64,000 bases of DNA. Source: Methanococcus aeolicus Nankai-3 (lineage in GTDB: Archaea > AGJL01 > Methanococci > Methanococcales > Methanococcaceae). Under the pieces are notes generated by a model. The model did no database searches and was not told where the DNA came from. It saw only the letters and a list, made by a program, of their open reading frames with translations. The position numbers and the translations under genes were made by a program. The DNA is taken from assembly GCF_000017185.1 (NCBI RefSeq), contig NC_009635.1, positions 1,201,189 through 1,265,188 of the forward strand, read 5' to 3'. Shown in pieces: positions 85 to 44,130 of the stretch. The first letter of the stretch is position 1; every line of letters starts with the position of its first letter.

Positions 85-1209
85 ATGGATATAATTGATA
101 GTGTAGCAAAAGATTTTTTAACAAATGATATTTGGATAATGCCCACAGATAGAGAAGATATTCTTGAATTGGACGACATCGGAAATATTAAAATAGTGGA
201 TACCATACCAATTATAAGAACACTTGCTACTCCATCATTAAAAAAAACATTGAAAAGACTATTATATATTATAAAAGATAAAATGGTGTTATTTGATAGC
301 ACAAAAAACAGTGAAATACAAATCAATATTATGAATTATATTAATAAAAAATATTTTGATGCCAAAAATAAAAATTATTATCGTGCAAAAAAAGCATGGT
401 ATAGATTTATAGGGGACATATTTAATAATATCGAAAAAAACGAAATTAAAAAGGCACTAACTAAAATAATAGTGCTTTTAAAAGTATTAAATCCTATATT
501 GGTATTTGAAGTTCATAATATATCTAAATGGAATTATCCAATGGGCTTTAAAAGATTTATAGATTATCTCCATACCAACGGAATAAGCATAGTAATAAAA
601 TGCCCAGTTGAATCAAAACAGAATTTAAGCACATTATTCGAAAACTCGAAAATAAATGATATAGCAATAGTAAAATATTATGCAAAATTAAAAGGAAGAT
701 TTATTTCTACAACTGTGGCAAAATATTTATTAAATATATCCAATGGAAACACTAACATTATAGATATATTATTATTAAAATCAAAGAGGGAATTAAAAAC
801 CCTAAGAGATTTAAAAGTGCCATGGTTAAAAATACTCCCGATTATAGTTCCAAGTAAATATCAAAAAATTATAAATATAATTTGCAATATTAAAAAATTT
901 AAAATAAATGATATTGAACAATTATTGGATTTAAAAATACCTACAATATATGCCTATTTAAAAGAATTGGTAGATATGGGTATAATTACCAAAAGAAGAA
1001 TAAATAATAGGATTGGTAGGCCGTCTAGAACTTTTTTATATAAATTAAGCATAAATAAAGAAATATTATTTGATTACCTTGACAATTTGCCATATAACGA
1101 CCTATATTTTACTGTTTTTCATAATGCAAATAGTCAAATTTTAACGAGAAATAACACGGAGCTCCGAAAATACTCAAATAGTAGGTTTCGGGTTTTCGGA
1201 TTAGGTTGA
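85..1209 (+). CDS. Degenerate AAA+-like protein with C-terminal winged helix
   Basis: A 374-residue protein that I cannot assign to a named family. The middle (about residues 150-240) reads like the second half of an AAA+/STAND ATPase fold: a Walker-B-like strand (ILVFEVHN) followed by a sensor-like strand (ISIVIKCPV), but no Walker A loop is visible. Residues about 275-345 look like a winged helix (NDIEQLLDLKIPTIYAYLKE, then a basic wing with KRRINNRIGRPSR). The start ATG follows GAGAGATAAT. The last codons run through a copy of the TTTCGGGTTTTCGG repeat, so the C-terminal tail may not be conserved. It borders the proposed origin opposite the Orc1/Cdc6-like gene, which suggests an initiator-related DNA-binding role; that is inference. 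Confidence 0.6.
   Translation: MDIIDSVAKDFLTNDIWIMPTDREDILELDDIGNIKIVDTIPIIRTLATPSLKKTLKRLLYIIKDKMVLFDSTKNSEIQINIMNYINKKYFDAKNKNYYRAKKAWYRFIGDIFNNIEKNEIKKALTKIIVLLKVLNPILVFEVHNISKWNYPMGFKRFIDYLHTNGISIVIKCPVESKQNLSTLFENSKINDIAIVKYYAKLKGRFISTTVAKYLLNISNGNTNIIDILLLKSKRELKTLRDLKVPWLKILPIIVPSKYQKIINIICNIKKFKINDIEQLLDLKIPTIYAYLKELVDMGIITKRRINNRIGRPSRTFLYKLSINKEILFDYLDNLPYNDLYFTVFHNANSQILTRNNTELRKYSNSRFRVFGLG
1186..1199 (+). repeat. Origin-type repeat R1 (TTTCGGGTTTTCGG)
   Basis: First and fullest copy of a G-string motif that recurs across the 1.2-2.9 kb region. It overlaps the 3' end of the upstream coding region. A half-copy in the opposite sense (ACCCGAA) follows at about 1214-1220. Confidence 0.7.
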
Positions 1210-1349
1210 TTTTACCCGAATAACAACTATTTTTAATAAATTATTACTAAGTATGTTTTGTGCATAGTTATGACACAACTTAATTTTTACTATTAGGTTT
1301 CAAAATCATACAATAAGAAAATACATATATAAACACTTTTCTTAATATG

Positions 1350-1363
1350 TTTTCGGGTTTTCG
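1350..1363 (+). repeat. Origin-type repeat R2 (TTTTCGGGTTTTCG)
   Basis: Forward copy of the motif, at the left edge of the most AT-rich stretch of the gap. Confidence 0.7.
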
Positions 1364-1707
1364 AGTGCGATATATATATAGAAAATAAAAATATATGTCC
1401 AAAGTTATAAGAAAAAAATTATCACAACTTTTTATTATTATATTATATTATTACTCTTATTATGTATATATAATATATATAATATATATTTTTAATAATA
1501 TATTGATTAAACTATAATTAAATTGAAATAATTAAATAAAAAACAGATAATTTTTATTAAAAAACAGTGTTAATTGTCCATAGTAAATAATAGATACATG
1601 GCCAAAGCTAAACAAAAAAATAAGCCTTTTTAGCCCAATAATTTTTTAGGAATAATTTTAAAACAACATTTCCATATACACTTCCCAACCCCTATACATA
1701 TATCAGA

Positions 1708-1721
1708 CCCGAAAACCCGAA
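1708..1721 (-). repeat. Origin-type repeat R3, inverted (CCCGAAAACCCGAA)
   Basis: Reverse-orientation copy just downstream of the wHTH-SWIM gene stop codon. With R1 and R2 it brackets the AT-rich segment. Confidence 0.7.
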
Positions 1722-1724
1722 TTA

Positions 1725-2246
1725 CTACTTTTTCAGCTCTTCGTAGTAATTTTTAAGATAGTTTATGTGTCTGCATGCCCTCGACTGGCAAGATGTACAC
1801 CACCATGCACCTTCATTTGACCTATACACATTAGATATTAGATCTCCTTCACTATCGTAGAAGCTATACTGTTTTCCGCCTACATAATCAACAGATTCTT
1901 TTATTTCTAAACCTATTCTATTGACTGGGTAATACTTAGTTCCATATTTCTTTTTCGGTAAAGACCCGAAAAGACCCGAAAAGCTACGGTCAAAAATTTC
2001 GGGCGATAATCGCTTTAAAATAGACATTCCTTTAACAGTTATTGAGTATAGTACTTTATGTCCACTTCTACTTCTTTTTACAATATTTAAAGCAGTACAT
2101 AGTCTTAAAAATTGAGATGGGAGTCCCTTTGATATTTTTAGGTTTTCGGTTATCTGTTTGGGGTAAGTTGTGCCACGAATTAACACAAAATGTAAAATCA
2201 ATTTTCTAATCGGCGTTGCTATGCTTTGATTTATTATATTTTCCAT
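1725..2246 (-). CDS. Winged-helix protein with SWIM-type zinc site
   Basis: 173 residues when started at the ATG at 2246, which has an AGGTGA ribosome binding site; the longer reading frame to 2309 has none. Residues about 1-85 form a winged helix (TYPKQITENLKISKGLPSQF). The C-terminus has WWCTSCQSRACRHINYL, a variant of the SWIM zinc motif in which CxC is replaced by CxxC, followed by CxH. SWIM domains bind DNA or protein. The gene sits inside the proposed origin, between its two AT-rich gaps, and its own coding sequence contains two tandem copies of AAGACCCGAA (1961-1980). A role in origin binding or autoregulation is inferred from position only. Confidence 0.65.
   Translation of the reverse strand: MENIINQSIATPIRKLILHFVLIRGTTYPKQITENLKISKGLPSQFLRLCTALNIVKRSRSGHKVLYSITVKGMSILKRLSPEIFDRSFSGLFGSLPKKKYGTKYYPVNRIGLEIKESVDYVGGKQYSFYDSEGDLISNVYRSNEGAWWCTSCQSRACRHINYLKNYYEELKK
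1961..1983 (-). repeat. Origin-type repeat R4, tandem pair inside CDS
   Basis: AAGACCCGAA occurs twice head to tail, followed by AAG. It lies within the wHTH-SWIM coding region, reads as TTCGGGTCTT on the gene strand, and shares the CCCGAAAA core with R3. A partial copy (TTTCGGG) follows at about 1998 and a half-copy GGTTTTCGG lies at 2141-2149. Confidence 0.55.
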
Positions 2247-3100
2247 ATTTTCACCTTTATATTTAATTATATGCGTCGTATGATTTGTATTATGGTATAT
2301 CTCAATCATATGGTATTTTTAAATATATTTTAAGTTTTGATTCATTTTACGATTTTTCTAAGCTAATTTATTATAATATCTCTGATAGTATATAATGTTT
2401 ATCATTATTATTTATTATCATATATTTGTTATATGCTGTTTTTTTATTATTTTGGAGATAAATATGTGTTATTATTGTTATATATTTGTTATATATTTGT
2501 TATATATAATATTATAAAGTGATTCATAGTCTATATTATTTTATTTAATGAATTCACGGGTTATATTTTAGTATATATACTAAAAAGTCAATTCAAAAAA
2601 ACTTTATTGCCATAGTGATAGTTTATATACTTTTAAAATTTTATTAAAGTTTTTTTTATATCTTTTTTAAGCAATTCTAAGGGAGATAATTTATAAATTA
2701 TAAATTGATTCACAAGATATTTATAATATTATCTTTGATTCACAATATTTTAAAAATGAACATAATTTTGATAATAATTATACATTTAAAAATTTATTTA
2801 TTAATATAAATATATATACAACAATTACTTAGAAAAATTAATGGTTTTCGGGTTTTCTATCGTTTAGAAAATAATCAATTAGAAATACCGAAAACTATAA
2901 AAATAGGGGGTGTGTAAGATATTATACTTTATTATAGTCAATCGCAGAACACCCTGCATAAATATTCATTATTAAATAAGCAGTATCTGTCGTTTATTTG
3001 CAAAAATATTCAATAATATTCAATAATATTCAATAAATATTTTTTAGATGATTTGACCCTCTATGTCATATATTTCATGATTGACTATACTGGTGGTATT
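2247..3100. other. Second AT-rich gap with iteron-like repeats
   Basis: No gene is seen in this 850-base stretch. It holds three copies of TATTTGTTATA (2423, 2483, 2494), four of TGATTCA (2338, 2520, 2706, 2736; the last two extend to TTGATTCACA), a forward G-string motif with an inverted half-copy (2843-2895), and a 10-base unit AATATTCAAT repeated exactly three times in tandem (3005-3034). It is the upstream region of both the wHTH-SWIM gene and the Orc1/Cdc6-like gene, so it must also carry both promoters. Confidence 0.5.
2843..2857 (+). repeat. Origin-type repeat R5 (GGTTTTCGGGTTTTC)
   Basis: Forward copy, followed 30 bases later by an inverted half-copy (ACCGAAAAC, 2887-2895). It lies about 245 bases upstream of the Orc1/Cdc6-like start codon. 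Confidence 0.65.
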
Positions 3101-26972: not shown

Positions 26973-28037
26973 TTATAAATTATTATTTTTTGAATTAATA
27001 ATTGCGTTAATGACATATTCGTCAGATATTCTTTTAGCATCTTTTGAGCAAAAATCAATTCTAAGAGTTTTACTTGCTCCAGGCATTCCTCCTGCGGTGA
27101 TGGTTATTATTCCATAATTTTCAAGCATTTTTAAAGCAATGTTTATATATTCTTCATCGGATAAATTTGTAATAATAAATCCAGTTGGGGTTTTTTCATA
27201 TTTCAATCCTGCATTTACCAAAGAGGATAAATCTATGTTTTTTGCTCTTTTTAAGGCGTCCTTTAAATTATCTAATTTAAAATTTTTTAAAGCATTTATC
27301 ATAGCACATAATATTGGGGCCTGAGCTTCTAAACCATATTTAAGTCCTTCGGAATATATTTTATCAATTAATTCTTTTTTACCACTTAATAATCCTGCCC
27401 TTGGACCATTCATTAATTTGTCCGTGCTTGAAACCGCCAAATCAGCACCAATTTTTAGAGCTGGTGGCTGGTTATAAAGCAATCTTAATCTTGCACCAGA
27501 TGCATCATCTACAAATACAATGCTGTTTTTTTCTTTACAATATTGTATTATTTCTTTTAAATCATCTAAATTTATCATTTTATGGTCCATTGTAGCTCCA
27601 GTGATAATAGTTAGGGTTTCACCGTCTATTTTATTTAACATTTCCTGTAAATTATCGCTTTCAAAATAATTCATATCAAATATGTCGCAACTTCGCGGGA
27701 TAGATGGATGGGACGGTAATTTTGGAACAAAATGCACCACTGTTTTAATATCCTTGGATAATGCACAAATCGTGGAGAATATGGCTGAAGAAGTTCTATT
27801 AAAACCAACGGCTTTATGGATAGATGGGCTCCCTCCGAAATGACTTATTCCAACGGCATTTAATTGCTCTGAGAATATTGCTGGACCTACATATGTTTCA
27901 AGGAGCTCCATGTCTGAATCAGATATTTCGAATCCTCCCGATAATCCAGTTAAATCATATATCTCCTTTCTTCCCTTTTCATTTATTATTTTTCTTATTA
28001 TTTTTCTTGTTTTGTTTATCCTTTTTAATTCTGACAT
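26973..28037 (-). CDS. PLP-dependent SelA-like enzyme (MJ0158 family)
   Basis: 354 residues of the fold type I PLP family related to bacterial selenocysteine synthase SelA; archaeal members (MJ0158) are not the working Sec-tRNA enzyme and their role is open. Visible: GGSPSIHKAVGFNRTSSA near the N-terminus, VFVDDASGARLR with the PLP-binding aspartate, AVSSTDKLMNGPRAGLLSG with the likely Schiff-base lysine, and a C-terminal GIITITAGGMPGASKTLRIDF. Start 28037 is chosen for the GGTGCAAAAT site; the frame to 28067 would begin within a mini-element end. Confidence 0.8.
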   Translation of the reverse strand: MSELKRINKTRKIIRKIINEKGRKEIYDLTGLSGGFEISDSDMELLETYVGPAIFSEQLNAVGISHFGGSPSIHKAVGFNRTSSAIFSTICALSKDIKTVVHFVPKLPSHPSIPRSCDIFDMNYFESDNLQEMLNKIDGETLTIITGATMDHKMINLDDLKEIIQYCKEKNSIVFVDDASGARLRLLYNQPPALKIGADLAVSSTDKLMNGPRAGLLSGKKELIDKIYSEGLKYGLEAQAPILCAMINALKNFKLDNLKDALKRAKNIDLSSLVNAGLKYEKTPTGFIITNLSDEEYINIALKMLENYGIITITAGGMPGASKTLRIDFCSKDAKRISDEYVINAIINSKNNNL

Positions 28038-28055
28038 ATTTTGCACCAAATTATA

Positions 28056-28181
28056 GTGAATCAACAATAAATGTCCTTAATTGGTCAAAGATATCCAATT
28101 ACATTGACCGTTATTTCATATATCTAGTCATACTTATCGACATATGGCAGGCAATATAATGCCAAGTGTCCGTTGATTTAC
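28056..28181. repeat. Family-2 mini-element (GTRAATCRAC termini), 126 bases
   Basis: It begins GTGAATCAACAATAAATGTCC and ends GTCCGTTGATTTAC, an imperfect inverted repeat, with TATA on the left and TAT on the right. No gene inside. It sits directly upstream of the SelA-like gene. Confidence 0.6.
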
Positions 28182-28443
28182 TATCTGCTGTATAAATTTT
28201 TATGGTCCTGGGATTTATTGCATGGAGCTCCGCACACACCATAATAAAAAAATAAAATAAAAAATATGGTAAATCGATAATTAAATGTTATTAGGTGCTC
28301 CAATGATTAAGAAGATAAGCTCTATATATTGGAGTGTGTTTGGAAAGATTATATTATATATTGTGGTTTTTATTACTATGAAAAGTCCTCGAATTATTAT
28401 GTCTCTAAATTAACGCAACAGTCCGTCGATTTACTATAATATA
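28182..28443. other. Intergenic stretch with two mini-elements
   Basis: The spacer between the SelA-like gene and the DUF2098-like gene is about 400 bases in all and contains only elements: family-2 copies at 28056-28181 and 28269-28434, and one GGAGCTCC (about 28224). I see no gene. Confidence 0.5.
28269..28434. repeat. Family-2 mini-element, 166 bases
   Basis: It starts GTAAATCGATAATTAAATG and ends AGTCCGTCGATTTAC, flanked by TATG and TATA. It contains no open reading frame of note. Termini match those at 28056 and 49905. Confidence 0.55.
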
Positions 28444-28722
28444 TTAACCTGCTCCGCAAGTTTCTATATCTACATCAATATCTGTTATTTTTTCATCATC
28501 TAACATTTTTTCTATTTCTTCTTCATTTATTTCAGATTTGGCATATTTTTTATGTTCTATTATTTCCAACATTTTTGGGTTATACATTAAATCATTGTCC
28601 AATATGACCCATATTTTACCATTTTCTTCTTTAATATCTTTCACGGTGCCCTTGGTTCCTGTATTTATATACCTAACATAGGAATTTACATGGAGCTCCT
28701 TATTGTTTATGTCAGTTGGCAT
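28444..28722 (-). CDS. Small conserved methanogen protein, DUF2098-like
   Basis: 92 residues when started at ATG 28722 with GGTGATAAT. The first half reads as a small beta barrel (LHVNSYVRYINTGTKGTVKDI, KIWVILDNDLMYNPKMLEII), which resembles DUF2098 proteins of methanogens. The second half is acidic (EEIEKMLDDEKITDIDVDIE) and ends in ETCGAG, with a single near-terminal cysteine. Function unknown. It lies divergently upstream of the rRNA operon. Confidence 0.65.
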   Translation of the reverse strand: MPTDINNKELHVNSYVRYINTGTKGTVKDIKEENGKIWVILDNDLMYNPKMLEIIEHKKYAKSEINEEEIEKMLDDEKITDIDVDIETCGAG

Positions 28723-28982
28723 ATTATCACCTAACAAATATTGTATAAATGTAATATCCAACTTAATATATAATTATAATATACATTGTTCCTAACCTAA
28801 AAACAATACAATACACAAACCACCAGCATATTATGCAAATGTGATAGCTTGAAGATAAGAAATAGTTCAAGTTTGATGTAAGCCCATAACCAAGTGATAC
28901 TTGATAACGACCGAGTCAATTCCAAAATATATTGACCAACTCCTAAGAGTGGTTGTAAGGTTGTTTTACAGCCTTACAATTA
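28723..28982 (+). promoter_or_regulatory. rRNA operon promoter and leader region
   Basis: The 260 bases before 16S contain no gene. A TATA-rich block (ACTTAATATATAATTATAA, about 28761-28779) is the best promoter candidate and would start transcription near 28800-28810. The leader then contains the left arm of the 16S processing stem (28882-28912). The exact promoter is uncertain. Confidence 0.4.
28882..28912 (+). other. 16S processing stem, left arm, with bulge-helix-bulge
   Basis: GCCCATAACCA pairs with TGGTTATGGGC at 30482-30492; AGTG pairs with CACT; CTTGATAACGACC pairs with GGTCGTTATCAAG at 30462-30474. The 4-base-pair middle helix is bounded by 3-base bulges, ATA on this arm and AAA on the other. 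This is the canonical bulge-helix-bulge substrate of archaeal splicing endonuclease, which excises and circularises pre-16S. Confidence 0.9.
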
Positions 28983-33572
<4,590 letters not shown>

Positions 33573-33626
33573 TTGGAATATCTGGACACTTAAAGATACA
33601 GGAACCTATGTTTGTGTTGAAATAAC

Positions 33627-33634
33627 TTTTTTTT
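33627..33634 (+). terminator. Likely rRNA operon terminator (T8)
   Basis: A run of eight T residues lies 17 bases after the end of the 23S processing stem (33610), the usual type of archaeal termination signal. Convergent with the end of cdhC at 33746. Confidence 0.5.
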
Positions 33635-33745
33635 ATACTCATTATAATCGATATATATTAATATATAAATATATTCGGAGTCCCCATATTTTTTCAAAAT
33701 TTTTCTAAAAAAAATAAAAAAAGAAAAATAAAATAAGTATATAGT

Positions 33746-36037
33746 TTATTTTTTACCGCTCTCTCGAGTGATTATTATTTGTTCAGCCTTTATAACTGCA
33801 TTTTTTAATACTATTTTAATATCTTTTGGAAGTCCTCCAAATCCAGCAGGCATGGTCATTGTAGGTACTGTAATGGTGCCCTCTTCCTCGCCTTCTGTAT
33901 CTCCCATATATTCCTCTTCTTCTGTATGGGTTTCTACTACTTCTATATCCTCTGCATCCATATCCAAACCTATATTTTCAGCAACTGGGTGATTGTTCTT
34001 TTTCAAGAAATCAATTAATTCCTCAATACTGGATACATCTTCTTCTGTTGCAATTTTTGGAATCATTTCCTCAGGTATTCCATCAATTACCTTATTTTTT
34101 AATTCTGAAGGTAGCCATACAACTCTTTCCCAGCCACCATCGGCCTTAAAGAATTTTGAAGATTTCATATAGGATACAGAGATGCCGCAGAATCCTTCAA
34201 CCTGGTTTCCGCCACTACATTGTCCAGCAAGTGCTGAAAATGGAACTCCCATTGGTGTTTCCCCTTTAAAACTTCTATCTACTATACCAAATCCATCAAC
34301 TTCTGGGATATAAAATGTAATTGCCTCAAAACAACCGCAAGAGGTAGATGGTCTATCCAATACACTATGTAATGTTATTGATTCAATTGCCCCTTGGGAT
34401 TTATCTTGGACAACTTCATTTACTGAATCATATATTCCTTTTTCTTCATCCAAACATTCTCCTTTTTCAATTGCAAATATTGGTCCATCTGGGTCAATTT
34501 TTGCCGCAGCTCTTGCATCGAGGTAATTAATACCACCACATAATGCAGGTTTATCGGGTGTAATTATACAAACATGGGAAGGTGCAAAGCTTTGACACAT
34601 AATACATCCATAAAATACATCTACATCTTCCTCATGGAGATTTTTGGTTTTTTCATCTCTAAATTTATATATCTCTTTTACTTTTTCTAATTCTTCTTTC
34701 ACTATGTCAGCATCAGTTATTAATTTAACATCTATATTTTCTATGAATGGAAACTCTGATTTATATATATCTTGTATTATTTTTCCGATATGGATTAAAT
34801 TTAATCCCTTTTCGGCGGATTCTTTATTAATTCTAATCCATACGCTATCTCTCTGGTTTAGGTGCATAACTCCTTCAATATAATTAAATATCTCATGAAC
34901 TCTTCTTTCCAATACGCCCTCCAAATCATCTTCTAATGTTTTCCCGCTTACATTTATTATTACAGCAAATGGTGTTTTTGTACCGGCTTCCATCTCTCCG
35001 ATATCCTTTCCAATAATCTCAATTTTATCGGATGCATCATCCACTACTTTAACAAGTTCAAACCCATACTGTTTAGGTCCTGCTAATTCAACAAACATGT
35101 CAGGCCCCCTTACTCTTTCTCCTTCATTCATCGGACCTACCGAAACAGGTATATTTACATCTTCTATTGACATTTCTTCCACCTTAATATTTTTCATTTT
35201 AAGGGCATTTTCAATAATATTATCTATATCTGAGCTCCCCAATGCACCTTCAATTTCTGGTACAGGATTATTGGTAATTACTGGAATGCCCGCTTTTATA
35301 CAACCTGCACCTGCGGCAAGTGTTATATCATCAACTTCACCTAATGCTATAACAATGGCAGGAACTCTGTTTGCAATATATTCGATAACTTCTTCTGTTT
35401 TTCCTCCTTCAACGCCCCCGTATATCAATGGAGCTCTAATGGCTAAATTTGCAGCATGTATTGCTGAGGTTATGCTATCTCCAACAGGAACTAGAAGTTT
35501 ATCAAGACCCAATTCAATATTGGCATCTTCCATTTCTTTTACAATATCTCCAATGAATAATCCTAATATATTTCGTTTTCTAATTTCGTTAATAAGGGAT
35601 TTTAATTTTTCTTCATCTCCTACTTTACCTATCACAACAAGTATTGCTGGTATTTTTCCATTAACAAGTGGAACCCCTAAATCTCTTAAAATTTTATCCG
35701 GGATAAATCCAGTATATGGGGCCTCATATGGTGTTTCATTATCCATATATTTTAGGGCTTCAAGAGCTTCCGCACAAATTAATGTTTTAACACCGGCATC
35801 AAGGGCATCATCTAGCGTAGCATCAGCATTATCTTCAATTTCAAGAGAATTAATTAACTCTTTTAACTGACCAATATTTTCTATTTTTTTACCTAATATT
35901 CCATATATTGTAGGCAAATAATAATTTGTTTCAAGAAATCCAATTTTTTTACTATCTTCATCTTTGTTATTTTTTAATGTATCAACGGTTAGATTTAATA
36001 CAGTTTTTCCGCCTGCGATTATGTTTTTAATAACCAT
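33746..36037 (-). CDS. cdhC: Acetyl-CoA decarbonylase/synthase beta subunit (acetyl-CoA synthase)
   Basis: Makes acetyl-CoA from CO, methyl-corrinoid and CoA at the nickel-iron A cluster. The A-cluster ligands are visible: YGCIMCQSFAPSHVC with a following cysteine in ALCGG, and the Cys-Gly-Cys of TSCGCFEA that holds the distal nickel. At 763 residues it is far longer than the roughly 460-residue Methanosarcina CdhC; about 300 extra N-terminal residues resemble the first domain of bacterial acetyl-CoA synthase. The start follows GAGGTAAAAA. A Glu/Thr-rich stretch and Met-Pro segment precede the C-terminus. Last gene of the cdhA-cdhB-ferredoxin-cdhC run. Confidence 0.93.
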   Translation of the reverse strand: MVIKNIIAGGKTVLNLTVDTLKNNKDEDSKKIGFLETNYYLPTIYGILGKKIENIGQLKELINSLEIEDNADATLDDALDAGVKTLICAEALEALKYMDNETPYEAPYTGFIPDKILRDLGVPLVNGKIPAILVVIGKVGDEEKLKSLINEIRKRNILGLFIGDIVKEMEDANIELGLDKLLVPVGDSITSAIHAANLAIRAPLIYGGVEGGKTEEVIEYIANRVPAIVIALGEVDDITLAAGAGCIKAGIPVITNNPVPEIEGALGSSDIDNIIENALKMKNIKVEEMSIEDVNIPVSVGPMNEGERVRGPDMFVELAGPKQYGFELVKVVDDASDKIEIIGKDIGEMEAGTKTPFAVIINVSGKTLEDDLEGVLERRVHEIFNYIEGVMHLNQRDSVWIRINKESAEKGLNLIHIGKIIQDIYKSEFPFIENIDVKLITDADIVKEELEKVKEIYKFRDEKTKNLHEEDVDVFYGCIMCQSFAPSHVCIITPDKPALCGGINYLDARAAAKIDPDGPIFAIEKGECLDEEKGIYDSVNEVVQDKSQGAIESITLHSVLDRPSTSCGCFEAITFYIPEVDGFGIVDRSFKGETPMGVPFSALAGQCSGGNQVEGFCGISVSYMKSSKFFKADGGWERVVWLPSELKNKVIDGIPEEMIPKIATEEDVSSIEELIDFLKKNNHPVAENIGLDMDAEDIEVVETHTEEEEYMGDTEGEEEGTITVPTMTMPAGFGGLPKDIKIVLKNAVIKAEQIIITRESGKK

Positions 36038-42600: not shown

Positions 42601-44130
42601 ATGAAGACAATATTGGGAAAATTGCATTTAAGATGGTGTATGGATTGTAATATGCCTGTTCTTGATAAAAAATGTGGAATATGTGGAAAAAACACAACGG
42701 AGGTAAAAATAACTCCACCAGCCGACCCGAGACCAGCATTTGACGAAGATATAACCATGATAAGTAAAATATTAAAAAATCAATTTGGAATAACATTAAA
42801 TAACAACGGACAAAGCAATATATTCAAAAATAAAATAGTTTTAATAAATAAAATCCCTGGAACTGACTATATGAAAGAGATAATGTTGGATGGGATATTA
42901 TTTGGGATTATAAAATATAACGAGGAAAAAAACACATGGGTAATAATGCCATCTGTTGATGGGGCTCGTAGAATAATCAATGAAAATGCCAATAAAAAAT
43001 TAATTGTAATAAATAGAGAAGTAATACCATTTGTATTAAAAAAACATGCTTCTATATTAAGACCGGGAGTAATATGGGCATCAGAAGATATTGAAGTTGA
43101 AGATGATGTAATAATATTGGTTGAAAATGATAATAACAAAAACAACGACGATTTTAAAGATATTGATGTTTTAGGTGTTGGAAGAAGTAGAATGAGCTAC
43201 CATGAAATAGTCAATTCAGAAAAAGGAATGGTAGCAAAAGTTAGAAAATCCGAAAACCCGAAACCTGCAAATATATTGAAAGAAACAGGAGCTCCCAGCG
43301 AAAACATTGAAAAAATGATTGAAGCTAATAAGGAACCAATGGCTAAATTTATTAATAATTCCGTAGGTTTTATGAGGAACACCATAAAAGAGCGAACAAA
43401 TAAACCGCCAGTTGTGGCATATTCGGGCGGAAAAGATAGTCTTGCCGTGTTATTATTGGCATTTGAGGCATTTAACAATGAAAATATAAACTTTGATGTA
43501 ATATTTTCGGATACAGAATTGGAACTCCCTGAAACTTTAAAAAATATACAGGATATTGAGGAAACATACGGCATAAACATAATAACGGCAAAATCTACGG
43601 AATTTTGGAAGAAATTGGAAGAAATGGGCCCTCCTGGTAGAGATAATAGGTGGTGCAGTGAAGTATGTAAAATGAAGCCACTTGAAAAAATAATAAATGA
43701 AAAATATGAAAAAGGTTGTTTAACTTTTGTAGGGCTTAGGAAATATGAATCAATGAATCGTTCAAAAAAGCCGAGAATTTGGAGAAGTCCTCACATTAAA
43801 AAACAAATGTTATCAGCACCAATATTAAATTGGACGGCTATGCATGTTTGGATATATTTGTTTATGAAAGGAGCTCCCTACAATAAATTATATGAGCAAT
43901 GTTTTGATAGGGTAGGATGTTATATGTGTCCAGCTATGGAATTGGGGGAAATGGAGCTAATTAGAAATATTTATCCTGACTATTGGAAAAAATGGGATAA
44001 TTTTTTAGAAAAATATGCAGAAACTCACAATTTGGATGATAATTGGATTAAAAGCGGTTGGAGATGGTCATATAAACAAGAAAATAACAAAAATAATATT
44101 CAGGATAAAAGTATGGGAACTTATGAATAA
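42601..44130 (+). CDS. PAPS-reductase-like PP-loop protein (MJ0066-type)
   Basis: 509 residues. N-terminal zinc-ribbon-like cysteines (RWCMDCNMPVLDKKCGICGK), a central region of about 180 residues that may include a PUA-like domain, then a PP-loop adenosine-nucleotide domain with PVVAYSGGKDSLAVLLLAFE (about 273-292) and a C-terminal segment with DNRWCSEVCKMKPLEK and GCYMCPAMELGEM, cysteines able to hold an iron-sulfur cluster. The family resembles PAPS/APS reductase but archaeal members of this build are uncharacterised; sulfur transfer or tRNA thiolation are alternatives. AGGTAGAATT precedes ATG 42601. It follows the TauE-type permease. Confidence 0.75.
   Translation: MKTILGKLHLRWCMDCNMPVLDKKCGICGKNTTEVKITPPADPRPAFDEDITMISKILKNQFGITLNNNGQSNIFKNKIVLINKIPGTDYMKEIMLDGILFGIIKYNEEKNTWVIMPSVDGARRIINENANKKLIVINREVIPFVLKKHASILRPGVIWASEDIEVEDDVIILVENDNNKNNDDFKDIDVLGVGRSRMSYHEIVNSEKGMVAKVRKSENPKPANILKETGAPSENIEKMIEANKEPMAKFINNSVGFMRNTIKERTNKPPVVAYSGGKDSLAVLLLAFEAFNNENINFDVIFSDTELELPETLKNIQDIEETYGINIITAKSTEFWKKLEEMGPPGRDNRWCSEVCKMKPLEKIINEKYEKGCLTFVGLRKYESMNRSKKPRIWRSPHIKKQMLSAPILNWTAMHVWIYLFMKGAPYNKLYEQCFDRVGCYMCPAMELGEMELIRNIYPDYWKKWDNFLEKYAETHNLDDNWIKSGWRWSYKQENNKNNIQDKSMGTYE

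Follow-up and report, generated by a model that had tools for sequence, protein, structure and literature searches.

How the Methanococcales start chromosome replication is a long-open question. In a review, origin recognition in this order was described as unknown, and skew-type analysis of M. maripaludis S2 as inconclusive (PMC3984812). For the order, earlier publications already describe a divergent ORC-like gene and, next to it, a predicted origin (PMC5333045, PMC2643942, PMC4164010). We analysed a stretch of 64,000 nucleotides of the Methanococcus aeolicus Nankai-3 chromosome (hereafter the window; NC_009635.1, positions 1,201,189 to 1,265,188), in which a first-pass annotation had placed a replication origin beside a gene of this kind. 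From the sequence comparisons described below, we predict that the locus is the chromosomal replication origin, with a probability of about 0.8. This interpretation is supported by a skew extreme beside the locus and by conservation of the motif at orthologous loci. The locus proposed by the annotation held up, but its placement of the core directly upstream of the ORC-like gene did not, and the core likely lies between two other genes.

The locus contains, in order, gene A (plus strand), a first gap, gene B (minus strand), a second gap and the ORC-like gene C (plus strand), so that A and B are convergent (Table 1). Both gaps had been reported as AT-rich, and this proved correct (1210-1724 and about 2250-3100). 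The four full motif copies listed by the annotation at 1186, 1350, 1708 (inverted) and 2843 were recovered within a few bases of those positions, and are called O1 to O4 here. Its tandem variant at 1961 (AAAGACCCGAAAAGACCCGAAAAG) also exists, falling inside gene B, as do the half-copies at 2141 and 2887, and we found a weaker copy at 2136-2149. The annotation recognised only one other full copy in the window; that copy is exact (43250-43263, in an ORF at 42601-44130), but another one inside gene A (638-651, minus strand) had been overlooked. The window holds 9 matches with at most 2 mismatches compared to 0.34 expected, and this number was reached in none of 100 shuffles. In the whole genome (1,569,500 bp), we found 2 exact copies and 6 copies with at most 1 mismatch, 4 of these 6 in the window. 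These counts confirm the motif and show that it is strongly over-represented in the window.

Table 1. Features of the predicted origin locus, in window coordinates
Feature	Position	Strand	Remarks
Gene A, winged-helix protein	85..1209	+	374 aa
Site O1 (TTTCGGGTTTTCGG)	1186-1199	+	exact copy, within the last codons of gene A
Box TTTGTGCATAGTTATGACACAACTTA	1257..1282	+	left of O2; alignable in many relatives
Site O2, extended 30-bp element, left arm	1351..1380	+	core copy 1351-1364, 1 mismatch
AT-rich spacer between O2 and O3	1381..1692		312 bp, 82% A+T; candidate unwinding element
TTATCACAA box	1419..1427	+	68 nt from O2 start
Site O3, extended 30-bp element, inverted right arm	1693..1722	-	core 1709-1722, 1 mismatch
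Gene B, ArsR-type winged helix	1725..2309	-
GATTCA repeat 1	2339..2344	+
GATTCA repeat 2	2521..2526	+
GATTCA repeat 3	2707..2712	+
GATTCA repeat 4	2734..2751	+	exact DoriC/Ori-Finder 2 Methanococcaceae ORB motif; sole exact match in the genome
Site O4	2846-2859	+	2 mismatches; upstream of ORC-like gene C
Gene C, divergent ORC/Cdc6-like AAA+ ATPase with C-terminal ArsR-type winged helix	3101..4327	+

The product of gene C has the layout of Orc1/Cdc6, an AAA+ core with Walker A and B motifs followed by a C-terminal winged helix (about residues 335-400). The sequence GTKGIGKSS is invariant and LIDEAD nearly so. Against the TIGR02928 model it scored 22.8 bits, far under the curated Orc1/Cdc6 cut-off of 181.3, a cut-off that was passed by no protein in any Methanococcales genome searched; in most Methanocaldococcus genomes, the best match to the Orc1/Cdc6 model was C. 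A profile search of the PDB returned Cdc6 as the best AAA+ match without significance (E 0.085), and the hhalign alignment to one haloarchaeal Orc1/Cdc6 was collinear (E 7e-4, probability 27%). The AlphaFold model of C (pLDDT 42) was too poor for fold comparison, and the search of viral contigs and plasmids for relatives of C returned nothing useful. Such proteins have been treated before as a divergent Orc or Cdc6-like putative initiator (PMC5333045, PMC2643942), and MJ0774 was not named in the literature that we searched.

Gene A showed no Walker A motif in its alignment. Its AlphaFold model has moderate confidence (pLDDT 74), and the top Foldseek matches of this model were human ORC, Sso Cdc6/Orc1 and Ape ORC1 (E 1.6e-4 to 2.8e-3), with probabilities of about 0.99 yet TM-scores of just 0.2. 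The hhalign comparison of A with Orc1/Cdc6 was not significant. The predicted fold of A may resemble that of ORC/Cdc6. Gene B carries an invariant C-x2-C-x4-C-x-H motif, and its true start is probably the internal ATG at 2246.

We aligned the first gap across the order. It is a convergent intergenic region of near-constant length, containing an inverted pair of the extended site TTTCGRGTTTTCGRGTTGCATGTATGTATA, and O3 is placed just 3' of the stop codon of gene B. Together, the pair and its spacer form a mirror-symmetric element of about 375 bp with near-fixed dimensions over most of the Methanococcales. In 24 of 25 genomes, O2 and O3 are separated by an inner distance of 314.9 +/- 7.4 bp; the single outlier has 581 bp. 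Identity across the order was 78-82% in the arms and 43% in the spacer (33% for shuffled sequence); the spacer keeps its length, and its sequence is poorly kept. A mirrored second box, TTATCACAA, stands 66-70 bp from each arm in most genomes of groups g5 and g4, where the right-hand copy is 66-69 nt from the end of O3; in the window, the left copy of this pair is intact and the right one degenerate.

In 18 genomes, the extended 30-bp pattern with up to two mismatches gave one forward and one reverse match, both of them in the A-B gap and none elsewhere; 15 of these genomes are at least 90% complete. The reversed pattern, used as a control in the same genome search, gave no match, and the extended motif was absent from the viral contigs searched. 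In genus g2, the pattern has drifted and one or both arms fall under the two-mismatch threshold; the pair is still recognisable. Further sites were found by a 13-position matrix derived from O2 and O3. In most genomes, this matrix placed O1 within the final codons of A; all 25 loci have an O4, which precedes C by about 40-255 bp. The motif occupies conserved places in the 25 loci, namely the final codons of A, the inverted pair in the A-B gap and the promoter region of C. In many species, O4 directly adjoins a CGAAA-TATA promoter, so that ordinary promoter sequence may make up its second half and contribute part of its score. The annotation had named an even spread over the genome as evidence against an origin; its distribution proved uneven, and the orthologous loci of both families have kept it. 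A conserved noncoding RNA could in principle account for a long conserved convergent intergenic region, and this candidate was rejected, as the spacer is hardly conserved and there was no relevant Rfam match.

We then examined the distribution of the module. The phylum-level search yielded the same 36 Methanococcales genomes, and the scope of the homologues is therefore the order. Gene C was found in 27 of the 36 genomes (69-88% identity in the 26 relatives), and A and B in 26. The order A, first gap, B, second gap, C is kept in 25 loci; C adjoins A-B in 25 of the 26 genomes having A and B. In the window's genome, the MCM helicase gene lies directly before A, just outside the window. The same holds for 12 of the 13 Methanococcaceae loci reaching that far, with MCM 1.4 kb before A in the thirteenth, and MCM is not directly before A in genome G004. 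At L077:3401-5215, we also saw another MCM homologue, which shares 46% identity with the A-adjoining MCM of genome G017.

The exception is genome G003. Here, the element and a GRTTCA array stay with A-B at 104-107 kb, while C lies at 297 kb, 192 kb away, with no site upstream of the relocated C. This indicates that the element belongs with A-B and not with C, and it supports placing the likely core between A and B. Eight relatives (G022, G024, G025, G026, G027, G028, G031 and G032, which are of the window's genus) have neither A, B, C nor the motif, suggesting that the system is dispensable in some lineages. One of them, G028, is a single-contig genome. The module-less genomes that we checked retain MptA, the gene 3' of C in other genomes, and two of them have the same different neighbour beside it. 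Genome G011 also lacks A, B and C, but it is only 81% complete. A candidate element is thus parted from the ORC-like gene in one species, and a sister clade is without the entire module.

Furthermore, we computed compositional skew on 20-kb stretches that together cover about half of each chromosome; for the window's genome, 39 such stretches were used in addition to the window. In the window's genome, compositional strand asymmetry switches at the locus, and a weaker switch was seen in a second species. The annotation had named a skew minimum elsewhere as evidence against its proposal; across the evenly sampled half of the window's genome, the minimum of GC skew fell in the sampled block beside the locus. 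Specifically, cumulative GC skew and intergenic GC skew were both minimal in block 1176001-1196000, which ends 6 kb before the motif cluster (the window starts at 1201189), and both were maximal near 510 kb. At fourfold-degenerate sites, plus-strand genes contrasted most strongly with minus-strand genes at the boundary 1201189, whichever width was used, with permutation p values of 0.48 (k=4), 0.02 (k=6), 0.0015 (k=8) and <=0.0005 (k=10 and 12). In genome G017, the GC-skew minimum was at block 1542080 and the next sampled block begins at the locus; the fourfold-site contrast had its minimum near the antipode, k=12 was the sole width at which the permutation p value (0.04) was under 0.05, and the AT and intergenic cumulative skews disagreed. 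The best skew boundary of genome G003 was at 85-130 kb, by A-B and not by C; this signal was weak, with p 0.036 at a single width. Conservation, symmetry, uniqueness, gene context and a compositional switch were all observed at the locus.

These features suggest how the origin may work. The inverted 30-bp sites O2 and O3 would bind an initiator and bracket the AT-rich spacer of about 315 bp, which could melt, and O1 would extend the left platform. The ATPase C would be the most likely initiator, perhaps acting with A as a degenerate ORC-like partner. The core motif stayed constant where B has diverged to about 25% identity and C is kept near 78%, which favours C as its putative binder. MCM, encoded beside A, may then be loaded onto the spacer once this has melted. 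Through O4, which lies at the C promoter, the initiator may repress its own expression. In the B-C gap, the GATTCA direct repeats could serve as a second set of sites, perhaps for B.

The arrangement resembles the Orc1/Cdc6-dependent origins of Pyrococcus, Sulfolobus (oriC1) and Haloferax in its AT-rich region with inverted flanking recognition sites, an adjoining ORC-like ATPase gene, a nearby MCM gene and a compositional switch. In contrast to these origins, the unit here is a TTTCGRGTTTTCGRG direct repeat with a ATGTATGTATA tail, and the core lies between convergent winged-helix genes and is separable from the ORC-like gene. The canonical common ORB had no match in the window with up to 3 mismatches, and the mini-ORB occurred at chance level in the window, with none in the gaps. 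Leaving aside any homology of A or B to WhiP, the arrangement is also like that of Sulfolobus oriC3 and WhiP, where a winged-helix protein that is not a canonical Orc1/Cdc6 stands beside the origin. The most economical reading is a replication origin at an already suspected location, with a recognition element that is new relative to the accessible literature, in which we found neither the motif strings nor, within reach of our search, the symmetric four-site architecture. A bolder proposal, which we put forward only tentatively, is a separate class of archaeal origin. In it, a mirror-symmetric element of fixed size, tied to A-B and not to the ATPase gene, would be recognised by the divergent ORC-like ATPase C and a Walker-less ORC-like A, and the whole unit would have been lost in one clade that then replicates without a recognisable module.

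There is some chance, well short of even, that the core of the origin is the B-C gap with its GATTCA repeats and that the TTTCGRG sites are accessory. An oriC of M. jannaschii, predicted by Zhang and Zhang in 2004, is cited in PMC5333045. This Z-curve prediction reportedly placed it at 694,540-695,226. We take this interval to be the B-C gap of genome G004, in which C starts at 695,227 and the gap measures 687 bp; the element of G004 is located further left, between A and B (693,632-694,007). The Methanococcaceae ORB motif derived from DoriC was published with Ori-Finder 2, and it points to the same locus with its motif in the B-C gap, but the published table gives the GATTCA repeat and not the inverted TTTCGRG element of the A-B gap (PMC4164010). 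The motif matches exactly, and uniquely in the genome, at 2734; it was possibly derived from records including this species, so that the match is not independent. Direct GRTTCA repeats keep their spacing in Methanocaldococcus, and partly in the window's genome, the B-C gap is as AT-rich as the A-B gap, and the array of G003 likewise stays beside B. However, the array has shrunk to TATTCAC in g2 and to one or two GATTCA in several other genomes while the inverted pair persists, it shows no inverted symmetry, and in 17 of 25 genomes the 100 bp of lowest duplex stability in the region belong to the A-B gap. The two gaps are less than 1.5 kb apart, and thus skew cannot separate them. Just upstream of C, tandem 10-bp copies of ATATTCAATA were also seen at 2996-3035.

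It is unlikely that the sites form a centromere-like partition site, bound by B or A and separate from an origin close by. Weak matches to AspA, the pNOB8 partition protein, were obtained with B and with the winged helix of C, but these are no better than the matches to other ArsR-fold proteins. Partition sites are often near origins, and core copies outside the element concentrate within about 45 kb of it in many genomes, mostly on the A side. However, an MCM gene and an ORC-like ATPase gene adjoin the element, and no ParA-like gene was seen in the module.

Very unlikely is the reading of the sites as operators of a transcription regulator for A, B, C and a few other genes. The position of O4 at the promoter of C would fit, as would a full-length site 11 kb further left, beyond the window (genome position 1191182; L094:15182-15195), which the annotation had overlooked. 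This site, 11-12 kb from the element, lies at the end of an rRNA operon, between 5S rRNA and RNase P RNA and before the gene for the PolD large subunit, and it is common to the window's genome and G017 (L169:12319-12332), which belong to two genera. But O1 to O3 are at the 3' ends of convergent genes and not at promoters, an operator needs no fixed symmetric spacing of 315 bp, and the skew switches at the locus.

The predicted origin between A and B offers a candidate element that is short and precise, has defined sites and occurs order-wide. The order includes the genetically tractable M. maripaludis, and the start of replication in the Methanococcales becomes directly testable.

Two minor observations concern the surroundings of the locus. 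The PolD large subunit of the window's genome (L094:9462-14459) has 1665 aa, compared to 1134 aa in G017, and its inserted block looks like an intein. Within the window, GC content rises to 0.48-0.50 at 28000-34000, which is probably an rRNA operon.
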